A DNA stretch of 64,000 bases from Streptococcus suis (lineage in GTDB: Bacteria; Bacillota; Bacilli; Lactobacillales; Streptococcaceae), in assembly GCF_019856455.1 (NCBI RefSeq), contig NZ_CP082205.1, positions 1,302,001 to 1,366,000 of the forward strand, given 5' to 3'. The translations under genes and the position numbers were made by a program. Numbering within the stretch: the first letter of the stretch is position 1; each line of letters begins with the position of its first letter. The notes under the pieces were generated by a model. The model ran no database searches, had not been told where the DNA came from, and saw only the letters and a program-made list of their open reading frames with translations. Positions 21,799-62,723 of this stretch are shown piece after piece.

Positions 21799-23078
21799 CT
21801 GCGATGATAAAACTTAATGGTCAAAAGTGTACATGAAAACAAGCGCTAACTTCAAGCTATTCTTCCTGTCATCATCCCCCAAATAAAACCAGACAATTCT
21901 CGTGCAATAGCTGTTTTAGCAACATTTTGTTTCTTATTTTTTCCTAGAACAAGTGTGCGATAACGTCTTCTTAAGCGTTCATTAGCCTTATCCGCATAAG
22001 CAATCACCTCCACTCGGTTTCCACTTTGTCTCCTTTTCAATTCTTTGGATTTATACCCAATCGTCCCCTTAGCCAATGATTGTGCAGCTTCTATCAGAAG
22101 TCGTCTCACATGGCTATTCCCAGCTTTGGTGATAGCACCTCTTCTCTCCTTGTCGCCGCTAGAATTTTCGCTAGGAGTTAGCCCAAGATAAGAAGCAAAA
22201 TGTTGAGCTGTCGCAAAGCGATTAAAATCACCGATTTCTGTCACAATGGAAAGAGCAGTTAGTGTTTTAATGCCAATAAAGCAAGAAAGCCGTGAGACCT
22301 TCTCTTGGTAACTGTCGCTTTGACCCAGTTGCTCAATTCGTGCATCATACCGTTCTATTTGATCTACTAATTTCTCATAGGTCAATAGATATTCTGTCAA
22401 AATCTCTGCGTAAAGTCCATCAGGATTTAGGGAACGGAGCCAGCGGACATGTTTCTGTGTCCAATTACTGCTTCCCTCGGTATAGCGAAAATCATGTCGG
22501 AGACAGAAGGCAAGAATTTGTTGTTTGATTTTCTTCAGAGCCACTTTGTGGTCTGTTCTCATGCGGATATATTCTTTGACTTGTTCATCCTCAACAGTAG
22601 GAATATGAACAGGCCGATAGCTACGAAAGGCCAGAGCTTTTGCGAGCTGAGCTGCATCTTTTTTATCAGTCTTAACACGCTTAGATCCTTCCTTCATCAC
22701 CGTTGTAGGCGCCATCACGATACAGGGGATCCCGTGAGCTTGTAGCTGGTGATATAGGGTAAATCCAAGACATCCGGCTTCGTAGCCACATAACACTTCT
22801 GCATCTTGACCATATAAACGACGAAGCTCATTCACATAGTTCACAATATAGCTAACATTTGGACCAACTTTAGTGCTATGTTTGAATTGATTCGCCATCA
22901 TATCATAATAGCAGAGTGAAAAACTTTCTTTGTGAACATCCATTCCGATGAAAAGTGTGGTAAAATGAAACATATAAGACCTCCAATTGAGTGTGGTAAT
23001 TCCTGTTAGAAGTTGATTGTTTTTTTATTCTAGTGTACAGGTAAATCCACGAATTCTCAACTGGGGGTCTTTACATAT
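21154..23078 (-). mobile_element. IS110-family insertion element with duplicated end
   Basis: Transposase on the minus strand. Imperfect terminal inverted repeats: ATATGTAAAGCCC at 21154 (again at 21478) and GGGTCTTTACATAT ending at 23078. A second shared word, TTCGTGGATT, occurs inside both ends. The long noncoding end lies downstream of the transposase, as in the IS1111 subgroup. The functional element could start at 21154 or at 21478. It differs from the other two IS110-family elements in this window. Confidence 0.75.
21852..22973 (-). CDS. IS110-family transposase (DEDD recombinase)
   Basis: 373 residues, intact. The N-terminal RuvC-like domain shows FIGMDVHKESFSLCYYD (first Asp about 12), CGYEAGCLGF (Glu) and KTDKKDAAQLAKAL (Asp pair). 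The C-terminal Tnp_20 domain has IGDFNRFATAQHFASYLGLT and PSENSSGDKERRGAITKAG with the Ser-rich active segment. These recombinases use an element-encoded RNA to choose target and donor sites (established for IS621 and relatives). About 40 bp separate the start codon from other internal signals; no ribosome-binding site stronger than AGGTC was seen. Confidence 0.92.
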   Translation of the reverse strand: MFHFTTLFIGMDVHKESFSLCYYDMMANQFKHSTKVGPNVSYIVNYVNELRRLYGQDAEVLCGYEAGCLGFTLYHQLQAHGIPCIVMAPTTVMKEGSKRVKTDKKDAAQLAKALAFRSYRPVHIPTVEDEQVKEYIRMRTDHKVALKKIKQQILAFCLRHDFRYTEGSSNWTQKHVRWLRSLNPDGLYAEILTEYLLTYEKLVDQIERYDARIEQLGQSDSYQEKVSRLSCFIGIKTLTALSIVTEIGDFNRFATAQHFASYLGLTPSENSSGDKERRGAITKAGNSHVRRLLIEAAQSLAKGTIGYKSKELKRRQSGNRVEVIAYADKANERLRRRYRTLVLGKNKKQNVAKTAIARELSGFIWGMMTGRIA

Positions 23079-39630: not shown

Positions 39631-41707
39631 TTAATTTTCTTTTCTACGACCTACTGCCATGGCCAGTCCTGCAAGACCTAAACCAAACAGGCTGAGCGTC
39701 AGATTCATCTGATCACCAGTATTTGGCAAGACTCCTGCTTTTGTAGTTTTTACTGGACTTGCTACTTCTGGTTTTTTATCTCCTACTTTCGGAGAATCAA
39801 CTGGGGCCTTCTTGTCCGTTGCTGAAGTATTTTGTACTTGATTAGATGGTGAATCCGTATTTTCGGCTGGAACAGTTTCTGGATTTGAGGCTGGATTTTC
39901 TGGATCAGTATCCAATAAAATTTCGATAAAGTCTGGGTAGCCATCTTCATCCGTATCAATGCTTGAATTTACAGGAATGATACGTGAATATGGGTTGACA
40001 ACCTCATAAGCTGATAAGTCAGCTGTCTTTAGATATTCAGCAAAGACGCTGTCCATTGAAGGACCTTCTTCACGTGCTCCACCAAGCATTGTGTAGCCAT
40101 CACCACCAGCAGCAAGGAAGTCATTTGTTGCTAAATAGTAGTTTTTTTCAAGATCCAAGGCGTCATATTCGCCAGTCTCTGGATTAAGAATACCGATACG
40201 AAGAACACGTTCTTCTACAGGAAGAGTTGGATCGTAGAATACGTTTGCTCCTGAAATGTGTAGGAATCCGCCACTAGCTTCAAAGAGTGGCATACCATTT
40301 TCATCTAAAAGCATCTCGCCAGTTTCTGGATTCACTTGCAATGTAGATGATAAAGACTTGGTAAACATATCATAAATTTGCTGACCAGTCACAGTGATTT
40401 GAGAAACAATGTTACCAAATGGCAAAACTGCAATAATATCACCTTTTGTAACAGGCTGATCTTTAGCAATTGTTGCACGTAGACCACCGTTAGTCACAGC
40501 AAGGCTAGTTTTGTTTGAAAATCCTGTTTGACCATAGGCATAGATCGCATCCGTCACTGCATTCCCCAAGTTGGTTTCACGAACACGCACGTTTGAGCGG
40601 TCTCCGTTTAATTCCACTGGGTTATTTTCGATAACTACTTGAGCATTTTCAGCTTCATATTTTGCTTTAATTTCATCAACCAAGGCTGCGATTTTAGCAT
40701 TTGGCGTCACGTTTTTAGTATCCGCGGTAGAAATCAAACCAGCTTCACCCAATAATTTATCGGATTTCAAGGTTACTTTACCGATATTGTTCAAGTAAGA
40801 GCCTGTTTGATTATAAGTAACGTTATCTCCATAGGTAGTCGCTTCTACCGTGTGGGAATGACCGTCGATAACAATAACACGTTTACCAGCTAATTTGCTA
40901 TTTTTAGAAAGTGCTTCAGCAAGAGTTGAACCTCTCCATTCAACAGGTGTTGTAGAATCGACACCTAGGTGAGCTAGAATGATATAGTTCTTGTAAACAC
41001 GATTATCTGCTAGAGCACGTGCTTCCACTTCGTCAATCACTTTATTGACTTCTATGACTGGGTCGGTAAATATTACTCCCTCAACATTTTTAGGATGGGT
41101 TTTTGTAGCAGTCTCAGGTGTTGTTACACCGATAACTACAAATTCATCGCCTACAACAGTTGGAGTTTTATCGACGATAGTCGAAGCTTCAAAAACACGA
41201 GCACCATTAACGTAAGTGTTAGCACTCAATAGCGGGAAGTTCAAAGTTTCCTTGTACTTGATTGCTTGATCCATCCCAAAGTCAAATTCATGGTTACCAA
41301 CAGCCATTGCATCATAGCCGACTTGGTTCATGATATTGGCGCGGTCTTCACCTTTTGTAGAGTTGGAAATTGGAAGTCCTTGGAAGGCATCCAGCATCTA
41401 CTACAATTGTATTTTCTACTTTGGCACGTTCTTCTTCAATGACTGCTGCAGCCTTAGCGTCACCGATGACATTCTTTTCTTCAAGAATGCGACCGTGAAC
41501 GTCGTTTGTGGATAATGACTGCCTCTACTGTTTCTTCCGCAGCAGAACAACAGTTTCCTCCGTTGCTACATTTTCAACTGACGTTGCTGGCTGATTGGTT
41601 GTGGTAGCTGCAGTCGTTGTCTCAGCAGCTTGTACTTGTTGAGCTAAAACAAATGGAGCTAACAAGAGTGTGGACATTACAGGCAACAAGATTTTTTTCT
41701 TTTTCAT
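39631..41707 (-). pseudogene. Cell-wall-anchored 5'-nucleotidase, frameshifted near the N-terminus
   Basis: Start MKKKKILLPVMSTLLLAPFV (signal peptide, RBS AAGAAAGG). After EETVV the frame is lost, then VHGRILEEKNVIGDAKAAAV is found in another frame, and a two-base loss at about 41393 leads into AFQGLPISNSTKGEDRANIM. The remainder is intact: metallophosphatase motifs GNHEFDFG and GHSHT, a 5'-nucleotidase C-terminal domain (GGDGYTML), and the sorting signal LPNTG with hydrophobic tail and RRKEN. The family makes adenosine from AMP outside the cell; in S. suis such an enzyme aids immune evasion (literature). About 690 residues if repaired. Confidence 0.82.
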
Positions 41708-41807
41708 AAATAGACCTTTCTTCGACATTTTTTATATCTCTATTATACACTTTTTACCAAAAACAAAAACATTAAAATCGCTTACATGTCAAAAAGGTTC
41801 GAAATAA

Positions 41808-41838
41808 GGGAGCGGGAAAGAACTCGACTGGTCAAAAA
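41808..41838 (+). repeat. Interspersed hairpin repeat copy B, left part
   Basis: GGGAGCGGGAAAGAACTCGA to GTCAAAAA: the 5' arm and half the loop of the hairpin seen whole at 57349. An IS110-family element separates it from the right part at 43467. Confidence 0.85.
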
Positions 41839-41850
41839 CATACTAAGATT

Positions 41851-42056
41851 AGTAGTGAGGAAATCTCCGACGGGAGAGAGTACTCACTACTTTTTTCATT
41901 CTCAAAATGATAAAGTAGAGGTGTCTTGTTAAGTCGAGAACTCTTTTGACGCTAGACGTCGCATCAAAAACTGGCAAGACACCTGTTTTAGAAAGAATGT
42001 TATCAAAGTATGTGGGACGCCAGACGTCGAGTATTGAAAATGACATCACTAAAACA
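41851..42056 (+). ncRNA. Candidate bridge RNA of IS110-family copy 1
   Basis: Three consecutive folds. SL1: AGTAGTGAG (41851) with CTCACTACT (41883). Loop 1: 10-bp perfect stem AGGTGTCTTG (41919-41928) with CAAGACACCT (41975-41984), capped by the inner hairpin GACG-CTAGA-CGTC (41948-41960). Loop 2: TGTTTTAG (41984-41991) with CTAAAACA (42049-42056), capped by GACG-CCAGA-CGTC (42016-42028). The 5' arm of loop 1 contains GAACTCTTTT, complementary to target AAAAGAGTTC; the 3' arm contains TCAAAAA, as in the left flank. The 5' arm of loop 2 contains AGTATGT, complementary to the element's left end ACATACT. This matches the leader hairpin, target loop and donor loop described for IS621. Exact RNA ends are unknown. 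Confidence 0.7.
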
Positions 42057-42086
42057 AGGAATCATTCAAGACAAAGAGGTAATATC

Positions 42087-43289
42087 ATGCGTGCAGTTTT
42101 TGGGATTGATGTGAGTAAGGCAAGTTCAGAAGTGGCCATTCTAGTCAATGGTGAGAAAGTTCATGGCTATACCATGTCCAATGACGCCATCGGCTTTGCT
42201 CGGCTACTTGGCGATTTGAGAACCGTCCATAAACCAGAAATCATCTTTGAAGCAACAGGTGTCTATTCTCGCCGTCTCCAAACTTTTCTAGAAGATAATG
42301 GCTATGCTTATACAAGGCTTAATCCCTTAGAAGCTAAGAAGCAACTGGATAGCTTGCGTGTGAGGAAAACAGATCAAATTGACGCTGAAAAACTGGCTCA
42401 ATCTCAATTTGTGCTGAATCGTAAACCCACTTATGTCCAAGAAGAAGTCTATCAAGAACTGCGAGATTTAAGTCGCTTCTATCAGAACTTAACTGAGGAC
42501 ATCGTTCGAGCTAAAAACCGTCTGCACAAGGTCTTGCAAGTCACGTTTCCAGAGATAGAGACTGTCTTATCAAAGCCAACTGGGGAACAATACTGGAACT
42601 TAGTTACTGCGTTTCCTTACAAGGACTTCGTGCTTGATTTAAGCAAGGACGAACTCTTAGAGAGCATTCGTCAGTCCACCTCAAAACGGATTTCTGACAA
42701 GCGTGTGGCGTATTTAGCTGAGAAGCTGATAGCACTAGCTAATCAATCTTATTGTGCCGTCAAGAAAACCTCTCCAATGCTGGAAGAGGTTCGTTACTAT
42801 GGAAAAGAATTGCTTCGGCTTTCTGAACAGAGACAAACTGTCCTAGACCAAATGGTGGAACTAGCTCAGCCATTACCTGAATATGACATTCTGCTCTCTA
42901 TTCCTGGAATAGCTGAGACTACTGCAACAAGTATTATTGGTGAACTGGGAGATATTCGCCGTTTTCAGTCTGCCAACCAAATCAATGCCTTTATCGGTAT
43001 TGATCTGAGACACTATGAATCTGGCAACTTCCTCGCTAAGGAACACATTACCAAGCGTGGCAATCCCTACGCTAGAAAGATTCTGTTCAAATGTATTCAC
43101 AATATCGCTTCAGCCAGTCACACCAAGCCTTGCCATATCGCCGACTTTTATGAGAAACGAAAAAGACAATCGCAAACGACTTCTACGAAGCCACACACGA
43201 TTGCCTCCATACATCGTCTCATTCGGACAATGTATTACCTCATAACGCATAACAAACTTTACGATTACACTTTAACCCAAAATCAGTAA
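42087..43289 (+). CDS. IS110-family transposase, copy 1
   Basis: 400 residues from MRAVFGIDVSKASSEVAILV with AAAGAGGTAATATC before the ATG; the frame is open upstream to 41946, but that part is the noncoding end. DEDD RuvC-like residues: GIDVS (Asp 8), IFEATGVYSRRL (Glu), RKTDQIDAEKLA (Asp). The C-terminal Tnp_20 part has LLSIPGIAETTATSIIGELG and the Ser-containing IDLRHYESGNFLAKEHITKR. Predicted RNA-guided recombinase. Intact. Confidence 0.93.
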   Translation: MRAVFGIDVSKASSEVAILVNGEKVHGYTMSNDAIGFARLLGDLRTVHKPEIIFEATGVYSRRLQTFLEDNGYAYTRLNPLEAKKQLDSLRVRKTDQIDAEKLAQSQFVLNRKPTYVQEEVYQELRDLSRFYQNLTEDIVRAKNRLHKVLQVTFPEIETVLSKPTGEQYWNLVTAFPYKDFVLDLSKDELLESIRQSTSKRISDKRVAYLAEKLIALANQSYCAVKKTSPMLEEVRYYGKELLRLSEQRQTVLDQMVELAQPLPEYDILLSIPGIAETTATSIIGELGDIRRFQSANQINAFIGIDLRHYESGNFLAKEHITKRGNPYARKILFKCIHNIASASHTKPCHIADFYEKRKRQSQTTSTKPHTIASIHRLIRTMYYLITHNKLYDYTLTQNQ

Positions 43290-43466
43290 AATTGTTTATG
43301 CTATATTATTGTAACACCTTATCAAAAAATTTTCAACATAAGGTGTTAATTTCGTGTACCCTTTTTTACACGTAACTTTAGTCCAAAAGAAAACAATTTC
43401 TTTATTTTGACTATTGAACTCGATATATTTTTCATCAAATACCTTGATAGGCTTGACAAATGGTAG

Positions 43467-43663
43467 AAAAAGAGTTCGTCTTCCCGCCCCCGCACAGTTG
43501 ATTAGGTCAGATTTGGAGTGTAAAACACGAATTGCTGAGATTTGCTTCGCAAATCCTATCTCCAACCTTTAACAGTCCACTGGACTGTTAAACCCAATCA
43601 ACCACTGCGCTGAGATGTTGACACGAACCCTGAGAAGCGAGGTTAAGCTTTTTGCCCAGCCTC
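43467..43663 (+). repeat. Interspersed hairpin repeat copy B, right part
   Basis: Resumes AAAAAGAGTTCGTCTTCCCG and ends TTTTTGCCCAGCCTC. Compared with copies A and C it has an extra ~60 bp (43533-43595) containing two palindromes, GATTTGCTTCGCAAATC and TTTAACAGTCCACTGGACTG. With the element's tail it fills the 380-bp gap before pyrC. Confidence 0.83.
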
Positions 43664-43669
43664 CATTTC

Positions 43670-44940
43670 CTATTTACCAAATACTATTTGTCCATTTGCA
43701 ATGGTGTAAAGGACCTGTCCTTTCAGACTATCACCAACAAACGGAGAATTAGCAGACTTCGAGGCAAAATCCGCTGTGACCAACCGATTTGCATTTGGGT
43801 CAAAAATAACAAGATCAGCTGGGCCATTTTCAGCAAGATAGCCAGCATCAAGACCATAGAGCTTGGCTGGATTAATAGTCATTTTCTCCAACAATTGCAC
43901 GAGTGTCAGATGCCCTTCTTCCACCAGATGCGTCAAACCAAGTGAAAGCGAGGTTTCCAAGCCTGTCATTCCTGAAGGAGCTTGCGTAAGATCCTCTACA
44001 TTTTTCTCATCTGCGTGATGAGGAGCATGGTCCGTCGCAATGACAGAGATAACACCAGATTTCAATCCCTCAATAACCGCTAATCTGTCACTTCCCAAGC
44101 GTAATGGCGGATTCATTTTAGCATTGGCACCTTTTGTTAGAAGTAAGTCCTCAGTTCGTGAAAAATGTTGGGGTGCGACTTCTGCCGTGACGTTTGCTCC
44201 GAGACCTTGAACAATTCAACCACCTTGACCGACTCGGCTTTGGAAAGATGCTGGATATGAACACGCGCACCCATTTCATAGGCAATCATGACATCGCGAG
44301 CGACCATACTGTATTCTGCTACGCCAGTTGCTCCACAAACATGAAAATGTTTTTCAGCTACTTGCTCGTTGAGTCCCAAGACACCATTCAGGTCAGGGTC
44401 TTCTTCATGCAGACTGATGAGACAGCCTTGCTCTTTGGCTAATTTCATAGCTTTTCTAACCACGCCAGCATTTGTCAAAGGAATACCGTCGTCCGAAAAA
44501 GCCACCGCTCCAGCTTCTAACAAAGCAGGAAAATCGGTCAGGTTTTGCCCATCGAAATGATCTGTAATGGTTGCCACACTATAAATATGGATGGCTTCTT
44601 TTTTAGCGGAATCCAATACTCCTTTTAAGGTTTCAACATTTGAAATCGTCGGATTAGTGTTAGCCATCATGACAACAGAAGTAAAACCACCCGCTGCTGC
44701 AGAAAGAGCTCCTGTATGAATATCTTCTTTATGGGTCTGACCTGGCTCCCGAAAATGCACATGAACATCGACCAAACCAGGAGCAACGACTAATCCTGTC
44801 GCATCAATCACTTCTTGCTCAACATCTTCTGAAATAGACTCCGCAATCTTAACAATCTTACTTCCGTCCATCAAGATGTCGCAAACCTTGTCTAAACCAG
44901 ATTGCGGATCCAATACTCGACCATTTTTCACTAATAACAT
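43670..44940 (-). pseudogene. pyrC: Dihydroorotase, one frameshift
   Basis: The N-terminal 250 residues include the metal motif [15 protein letters not shown] and [11 protein letters not shown]. The frame breaks at VELFK near 44193; with one extra base it continues [20 protein letters not shown] and [20 protein letters not shown], with [13 protein letters not shown]. Repaired, it is a normal ~422-residue class I dihydroorotase that closes carbamoyl-aspartate to dihydroorotate. A functional pyr pathway elsewhere in the window argues for a sequence error as strongly as for real loss. Confidence 0.88.
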
Positions 44941-61520: not shown

Positions 61521-62723
61521 TTACTGATTTTGGGTAGAACGATAATCGTAAAGTTTGTTATGCGTTATGAGGTAATACATTGTCCGAATGAGACGATGTA
61601 TGGAGGCAATCGTGTGTGGCTTTGTAGAAGTCGTTTGCGATTGTCTTTTTCGTTTCTCATAAAAGTCGGCGATATGGCAAGGATTGGTGTGACTGGCTGA
61701 AGCGATATTGTGAATACATTTGAACAGAATCTTTCTAGCGTAGGGATTGCCACGCTTGGTAATGTGTTCCTTAGCTAAAAAGTTACCCGATTCATAGTGT
61801 CTGAGGTCAATACCGATAAAGGCATTGATTTGGTTGGCAGACTGAAAACGGCGAATATCTCCCAGTTCACCAATAATACTTGTTGCAGTAGTCTCAGCTA
61901 TTCCAGGAATAGAGAGCAGAATGTCATATTCAGGTAATGGCTGAGCTAGTTCCACCATTTGGTCTAGGACAGTTTGTCTCTGTTCAGAAAGCCGAAGCAA
62001 TTCTTTTCCATAGTAACGAACCTCTTCCAGCATTGGAGAGGTTTTCTTGACGGCACAATAAGATTGATTAGCTAGTGCTATCAGCTTCTCAGCTAAATAC
62101 GCCACACGCTTGTCCGAAATACGTTTTGAGGTGGACTGACGGATGCTCTCTGAGAGTTCGTCCTTGCTTAAATCAAGCACGAAGTCCTTGCAAGGAAACG
62201 CAGTAACTAAGTTCCAGTATTGTTCCCCAGTTGGCTTTGATAAGACAGTCTCTATCTCTGGAAACGTGACTTGCAAGACCTTGTGCAGACGGTTTTTAGC
62301 TCGAACGATGTCCTCAGTTAAGTTCTGATAGAAGCGACTTAAATCTCGCAGTTCTTGATAGACTTCTTCTTGGACATAAGTGGGTTTACGATTCAGCACA
62401 AATTGAGATTGAGCCAGTTTTTCGGCGTCAATTTGATCTGTTTTCCGCACACGCAAGCTATCCAGTTGCTTCTTAGCTTCTAAGGGATTAAGCCGTGTAT
62501 AAGCGTAGCCATGTTCATCCAGAAAAGCTTGGAGACGACGAGAATAGACATCTGTTGCTTCAAAGATGATTTCTGGCTTATGGACGGTTTTCAAATCGCC
62601 AAGTAGCCGAGCAAAGCCTAAGGCGTCATTGGACATGGTATAGCCATGAACTTTCTCACCATTGACTAGAATGGCCACTTCTGAACTTGCCTTACTCACA
62701 TCAATCCCAAAAACTGCACGCAT
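61521..62723 (-). CDS. IS110-family transposase, copy 2
   Basis: 400 residues from MRAVFGIDVSKASSEVAILV. By eye about 10-12 substitutions separate it from copy 1, for example EATD for EATG just after the catalytic Glu, QAFLDEHGY for QTFLEDNGY, and YRSTQ for YTLTQ at the end. The DEDD residues and C-terminal Ser motif are kept. Gly to Asp beside the catalytic Glu could affect activity. Confidence 0.92.
   Translation of the reverse strand: MRAVFGIDVSKASSEVAILVNGEKVHGYTMSNDALGFARLLGDLKTVHKPEIIFEATDVYSRRLQAFLDEHGYAYTRLNPLEAKKQLDSLRVRKTDQIDAEKLAQSQFVLNRKPTYVQEEVYQELRDLSRFYQNLTEDIVRAKNRLHKVLQVTFPEIETVLSKPTGEQYWNLVTAFPCKDFVLDLSKDELSESIRQSTSKRISDKRVAYLAEKLIALANQSYCAVKKTSPMLEEVRYYGKELLRLSEQRQTVLDQMVELAQPLPEYDILLSIPGIAETTATSIIGELGDIRRFQSANQINAFIGIDLRHYESGNFLAKEHITKRGNPYARKILFKCIHNIASASHTNPCHIADFYEKRKRQSQTTSTKPHTIASIHRLIRTMYYLITHNKLYDYRSTQNQ

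Follow-up and report, generated by a model that had tools for sequence, protein, structure and literature searches.

Positions 41851-42056 (plus strand) of the window (the whole 64,000-nt stretch of Streptococcus suis DNA analyzed here) very probably encode the bridge RNA of an IS110-family element that reads its flanks and ends in flipped order, the recombination site having been flipped once in the ancestor of a clade within the Bacilli. The 5' arms of the two RNA loops correspond to the right flank and the left end (LE) of the element, and the 3' arms to the left flank and the right end (RE). Sequence comparison shows the target and donor guides, the flank or end that each one reads, and the flipped polarity. 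In the main text of published work, guide order is tied to family, such that IS110 elements carry an upstream RNA and IS1111 elements carry a downstream RNA with the opposite order; this clade breaks that tie. We consider it probable that the clade represents a third arrangement, with the RNA upstream as in IS110 and the polarity as in IS1111, which arose once by a flip of the site relative to the RNA-recombinase cassette.

The element and its recombinase

The element spans 41836-43470 (plus strand; 1,635 bp from core AA to core AA), as delimited by the ends common to copies at different sites, its length, and an empty site. The left terminus, AAACATACT (41836-41844), consists of core AA and ACATACT, the latter beginning at 41838, and is the partner of the loop 2 5' arm. 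The right terminus, GGTAGAA plus core AA (43462-43470), was placed by comparison of copies. With few exceptions, copies at different sites have AAACATACTAAG on the left and GGTAGAA-AA on the right. A comparison of LE with the reverse complement of RE gave a longest common stretch of 4 nt and thus no longer inverted repeat. The noncoding regions measure 249 nt upstream and 181 nt downstream of the gene, with the RNA in the upstream one.

The recombinase gene (42087-43286, stop codon to 43289, plus strand) encodes a 400 aa protein with both a DEDD RuvC-like domain and a Transposase_20 domain (PF01548, 114.3 bits, cut-off 29; PF02371, 73.5 bits, cut-off 21.3). It also matches the NCBIfam model NF033542, "IS110 family RNA-guided transposase" (234.5 bits, cut-off 140), and its PDB matches are ISCro4 and IS621. 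The GID, EATG, KTD-xx-DA and YESG segments line up with both of these proteins by alignment, and the DEDD and serine catalytic residues are predicted to be those of IS621. In the source genome, such recombinase genes occur in 18 full-length copies (92-100% identity) and as fragments; the frame is open in all 18 copies, one of which (L002) is without a left end. A scan of reference genomes retained at least 77 loci from at least 101 matching stretches, all in Streptococcus among the matches listed. The window holds a second copy (L011; 61524-62723, minus strand) with identical guides, also in a palindromic repeat. In a Streptococcus ratti copy (L027), the terminal stretch of the right end is tandemly repeated, perhaps from insertion beside an older right end.

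Core and landing sites

Across 78 loci, the dinucleotide following GGTAGAA is AA in 73, AG in three, AT in one and GA in one. Read on the guide strand the cores are TT, CT, AT and TC, with T second in 77/78 loci. The core of IS621 has an almost invariant T in second place, and GT, AT and TT cores are tolerated (PMC11208158, main text). The core here seems to have been flipped together with the other parts of the site; the phase of the core, ambiguous within the A run, was set by analogy to IS621. Five empty target sites are present in the source genome versus none for a reversed control pattern. One of these, GACTGGTCAAAAAGAGTTCG, is the exact join of the flanks of the window element, which indicates insertion without added bases at a common core. 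The preferred target in the source genome is a palindromic repeat, one half of which, GGGAGYGGGAAAGAACTCGA, occurs in 40 exact copies; within the window, members of the repeat family lie at 41798-41823, at 43471-43500 and around 61524-62723. IS621 reportedly lands in REP sequences, much like the use of the palindromic repeat by this element.

Architecture of the RNA

The first-pass annotation had described a bridge RNA with a leader hairpin and two guide loops bearing matching caps, and all of its motifs were located at the positions given. The leader hairpin runs from 41851 to 41891 according to both the single-sequence fold and the RNAalifold consensus. Stem-loop 1, the target-binding loop (41919-41984; motifs AGGTGTCTTG at 41919 and CAAGACACCT at 41975), and stem-loop 2, the donor-binding loop (41984-42056; motifs TGTTTTAG at 41984 and CTAAAACA at 42049), each contain a cap hairpin, placed by motif position and consensus fold: GACGCTAGACGTC from 41948 (41948-41960) and GACGCCAGACGTC from 42016 (42016-42028), respectively, all on the plus strand. 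Folding of 41839-42086, proposed earlier as a check, gave -67.2 kcal/mol, whereas shuffled sequences averaged -49.84 (z -3.89), with 0/200 shuffles as good. An RNAalifold consensus built from 23 Streptococcus RNAs contains the leader hairpin and both capped stem-loops. Two-sided changes occur at only 2/52 consensus pairs (covariation term -0.8) because the 23-RNA set is close; in more distant relatives, compared by eye, the layout is kept and the stem sequences are changed.

Column entropy over the same 23 RNAs separates the two loops. The loop 1 5' arm has 1.35 bits over its seven non-core columns and the 3' arm 1.12 bits over 41962-41967, while scaffold stretches range from 0.10 to 0.34 bits and both donor guides are invariant (0.00 bits). 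The arms of loop 1 are therefore the only hypervariable stretches of an otherwise conserved RNA. In the main text on the IS621 RNA, the first loop is likewise described as variable and the second as conserved (PMC11208160). Flank covariation, the donor scan, entropy and the 15-element test, described below, support the annotation of a bridge RNA with target loop 1 and donor loop 2. At gathering thresholds over the whole window, Rfam returned two hits, neither in the 41851-42056 RNA: a PyrR binding site (RF00515; 48474-48588, minus strand) and the Streptococcus sRNA Srn266 (RF02822; 23490-23600, minus strand).

Target loop

The 5' target guide GAACTCTTTT (41938-41947) is the reverse complement of the right flank plus core, and the 3' target guide TCAAAAA (41964-41970) has the same sense as the left flank plus core. 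Their partners, defined by covariation and site scoring, are the right target half AGAGTTC (43471-43477) and the left target half TCAA (41832-41835), all on the plus strand; AAAAGAGTTC, noted earlier beside the insertion, begins at 43468. Target arms could be parsed in 71/97 loci, source-genome copies included, the remaining entries being truncated, deleted, without a left end or off-pattern. Alignment of these 71 homologous loci demonstrated that loop 1 arms covary with the flanking target, as the first-pass annotation had anticipated for a target loop. The 5' arm tracks the right flank in reverse-complement sense (47 unique pairs in 21 guide classes; z 7.9, 0/2000 permutations), and the 3' arm tracks the left flank just as strongly (61 pairs in 19 classes; z 7.9, 0/2000 permutations). 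The IS621-order assignment gave no signal in the same Streptococcus loci (z -1.7 and -1.1). The window's own target is palindromic, and GAACTC is also present in the left flank, about 10 bases from the insertion point. Its own flanks alone are therefore insufficient for polarity, and elements inserted elsewhere decide it.

Identical loop 1 arms at different targets had been named as an observation that would speak against a guide function. In part, such arms do occur, since among the 17 parsed source-genome copies the 5' arm is identical in all and the 3' arm in 16. The 7-nt guide match is full at 11/18 source-genome copies and covers 4-6 of 7 bases at the other seven, where the other guide fits 2-4 of 4 bases. 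The joint score of each of the 17 two-flank copies is reached by at most 2.2% of 4,729 AAA sites in the window. The seven partial-match copies, some at sites without resemblance to the palindromic repeat, seem to occupy imperfect targets of that guide and do not look like contradictions.

Donor loop

Loop 2 reads the ends of the element, in line with its earlier designation as the donor loop. The 5' donor guide AGTATGT (42007-42013) is the reverse complement of the LE terminus, and the 3' donor guide GTATTGAAAA (42031-42040) equals the RE end GTAGAAAA with TT bulged; both lie on the plus strand. The latter pairing, in which the pattern GTA-TT-GAAAA reads RE, was not part of the first-pass annotation and has counterparts in relatives. 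Donor pairing covaries in these: L100 has ACATTCT with AGAATGT, L124 has ACATATT with AATATGT and RE GTAAGAAA with GTA-AA-AGAAA, and ISSep2 has RE GTAGGAAA with GTA-TA-GGAAA.

A donor scan, which counts contiguous matches with the ends known and compares them to mononucleotide shuffles (n = 200), scored the flipped order higher in 10/11 clade elements, with at most 5/200 shuffles as good in 9/11. The window element scored 12 in flipped and 13 in normal order (19 and 10 of 200 shuffles), nearly equal because a contiguous scan is blind to the bulged 3' guide. In L124 and L127 the normal order likewise reaches high scores (14 and 15) because the long LE arm counts in both orders. IS621 scored 12 vs 9, leaning to its own order. 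Among outgroups the scores are tied or nearly so (G271, 13/13 and 12/12; Enterococcus, 11/10; G280, 10/9), and their polarity thus rests on the target side. A blind scan in which the ends were not supplied did not separate the two orders.

Guide order in relatives

As a control, two IS621 loci were read in the same way; there the left flank and RE are the partners of the 5' arms. The IS621 LTG ATCGGGCCT fits the left flank ATCAGGCCT at 8/9 bases, the LDG ACAGTATC fits the RE end, and the RDG ATTTGCAAG fits the LE start. The flipped order is shared by relatives at 26-49% identity from Lactobacillales genomes, a Lactiplantibacillus plasmid, and ISSep2 of Staphylococcus (a name taken from the annotation of a plasmid record). 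We compared summed longest matches for 15 elements (five from Streptococcus and 10 relatives, down to 26% identity), with arms and flanks cut by eye and both orders scored on identical cuts; L125, L128 and L134 were excluded for a missing end. In flipped order, the two sides summed to 112 against a null of 60.1 (sd 5.4, z 9.7) and to 107 against 76.5 (sd 4.2, z 7.2), each with 0/5000 permutations as high, and the IS621 order gave z -2.1 and -0.2. The right-side target match is weak (4-6 nt) in ISSep2, L119, L120, L121 and L123. A search with ISSep2 of 348 genomes of the phylum found matches at E <= 1e-30 in six, the source genome included. The earlier suggestion that guides can be assigned from the DNA alone is thus borne out by flank covariation, the donor scan, entropy and the 15-element test.

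All outgroups with an upstream RNA and a readable order (G271, Enterococcus, G280 and IS621) have the IS621 order. In the Enterococcus element (L145), whose insertion point was fixed by an empty site, TTTCCTCCT of the left flank is followed by TGTTTAG, the reverse complement of the right flank. For G271 (four copies, two guide pairs), the 5' arm matches the left flank over 6, 6, 10 and 10 nt vs 4, 2, 3 and 3 nt in flipped order, and the 3' arm matches over 5, 6, 4 and 5 nt in IS621 order vs 3, 4, 3 and 3 nt flipped. For G280 (three copies), the 5' arm, from which its label is taken, matches over 6, 8 and 8 nt vs 3, 3 and 3 nt flipped, the 3' arm being undecided.

A 28-row recombinase tree places the 14 flipped rows on one side of a 100/100 branch, with G271 as the nearest labelled rows. 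The tree is rooted at its midpoint only, and 9/28 rows are without a polarity label; L085 and L103 were left out as shorter than 250 aa. ISRel25/Paracoccus (unreadable), ISSso6 (no usable ends), and ISEc32 and a Klebsiella element (ends not derived) carry no label. The simplest reading of the tree is a single switch of polarity.

Comparison with known systems

The element resembles IS621 in its upstream RNA with a leader hairpin, in having a target loop followed by a donor loop with long 5' guides (PMC11208160 and PMC11208158, main texts), in recombinase homology and in T as the second core base. In addition, the 3' donor guide has two unpaired bases, and the main text of PMC11208158 describes two flipped-out bases in the IS621 RDG. 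The element differs in that the order of target and donor guides alike is reversed with respect to the recombinase gene, in its core (AA in gene sense, CT in IS621), and in recombinase length (400 vs 326 aa). According to the main text of Durrant et al., the 5' arm pairs with the bottom strand (PMC11208160). Of the first-pass label "IS621-type", the two-loop upstream RNA therefore stands, and the guide order does not. ISSep2, from the same clade, shares the LE terminus AAACATACTAAGATTAG and flipped donor guides (TAGTATGTT; GTA-TA-GGAAA), but its recombinase has 37% amino-acid identity and the right-side target match in the copy read is 4 nt.

In the main text of Siddiquee et al., IS1111 and IS110 seekRNAs are opposite in guide order, and their noncoding regions usually occupy opposite positions, with one IS110-type element among those tested (PMC11187229). 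The seekRNA of that type, ISEc21, is similar in its upstream noncoding region and in matching both target strands, but there the bottom-strand match lies 5' of the top-strand match, the reverse of the order seen here (PMC11187229). IS1111 seekRNAs have the complement of the top strand first, as here, assuming that the top strand in PMC11187229 is the transposase strand. They differ in that the RNA is usually downstream of the gene, whereas here the longer noncoding region is upstream, and in long subterminal inverted repeats (7-17 bp; at most 4 nt here) (PMC11187229). An upstream RNA with reversed guide order is not described in the main text of PMC11187229 or PMC11208160, and the RNA of this clade is not treated in the titles or abstracts of the papers, largely outside subscription journals, found by literature search.

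The source genome has a second IS110-family element with 42 matches, one of them in the window (22065-22289, minus strand). In the ten copies examined (L103-L112), the noncoding region lies downstream and the subterminal inverted repeat, ATATGTAAAG, is 10 bp long, which makes the element one of IS1111 type. By 7-nt matches only, it hints at the IS1111 guide order and may share that of the flipped clade.

Covariation models or retargeting rules based on IS621 would put the target and donor halves of this clade on the wrong flanks. If the third arrangement is real, polarity and RNA position are independent, and interconversion of the IS110 and IS1111 layouts becomes testable, with a branch of the tree marked where site polarity appears to have switched. 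For further compact recombinases, the clade offers natural guide-target pairs and empty sites in the same genome.

Alternative explanations

An ordinary bridge RNA in IS621 order, with 5' arms reading the left flank and the RE end, would have the same two-loop architecture and upstream position, and the palindromic repeat supplies GAACTC in the left flank too, though about 10 bases off the insertion point. Given negative scores for that order in both the Streptococcus loci (z -1.7/-1.1) and the 15 elements (z -2.1/-0.2), we find this scarcely credible. It is only slightly less implausible that the structure is a leader regulating the recombinase gene, with flank matches due to chance; its place immediately before the gene and the AT-richness of the flanks, in which chance matches are commoner, speak for it, but its sole hypervariable stretches are arms that follow each element's own flanks. 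An RNA transcribed from the other strand would restore IS621 geometry. In such an RNA the core would fall at the wrong end of each arm, opening the 5' arm where in IS621 it closes that arm at its 3' end, and the leader, loop order and junction promoter all suit the plus strand, so that we give this possibility almost no weight. That the RNA once worked and copies now spread by homologous recombination between repeats might be suggested by the many copies in one palindromic repeat family. Against this relic status, which we regard as very unlikely, stand the open recombinase frame in 18 copies and the 7/18 copies at 4-6 of 7 guide matches, some at sites unlike the repeat.

A flipped order that is real but ancestral, or that arose more than once, is unlikely but deserves more consideration. 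The midpoint-only root and the 9/28 unlabelled rows leave room for it, the published IS1111 guide order is the same as here (PMC11187229, main text), and the source genome's IS1111-type element hints likewise by its 7-nt matches only. On the other hand, the flipped rows form one side of a 100/100 branch, and the other order is found in G271 (the nearest labelled rows), Enterococcus, G280 and IS621. A single flip in the ancestor of the Bacilli clade is the simplest account of the guide order, with the whole recombination site (left half, core and right half) turned relative to the RNA-recombinase cassette and the RNA architecture kept. We speculate that a palindromic AT core, which is tolerated by IS621, was a possible stepping stone to this flip.

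Proposed mechanism and promoter

Excision and circularization would join RE to LE and create a TTGACA-18-TAAGAT promoter for the RNA. The putative -35 (TTGACA, 43453-43458) lies in the right end and the putative -10 (TAAGAT, 41844-41849) near the left end, both on the plus strand, and they would meet, with an 18-bp spacer, only across the RE-LE junction. A promoter consensus scan of the linear copy gave five promoter-like sites (4.6 expected by chance), one of them on the plus strand, in the left flank (41722-41751). The recombinase would bind the RNA, loop 1 would pair with the target and loop 2 with the RE-LE donor, and strands would presumably be exchanged at the 2-bp core as in IS621. In the 3' target guide the core is followed by a C, the same base that comes after AAA in LE, and this C may act as a handshake guide.

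Variant RNAs and neighboring genes

Seven Streptococcus loci (L047, L049, L052, L059, L061, L088 and L093) have a one-loop RNA upstream. A deletion running from one cap hairpin to its near-identical partner has left the loop 1 5' arm, a chimeric cap and the loop 2 3' arm. L047 and L052 have long recombinase frames despite this, and one-loop copies represent either decay or elements moved in trans. The upstream regions of L031, L032 and L038 have about 100 nt extra, which lies within the two loops or between them. The added sequence of L032 and L038 is a nearly identical palindromic stretch and may be a small mobile element that has landed in the RNA gene.

Genes on both sides of the element (39631-41709 and 43670-44940) seem split over frames, through either decay or sequencing errors. 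From their translations, we take them to be a cell-wall-anchored 5'-nucleotidase-like gene and a dihydroorotase-like gene.
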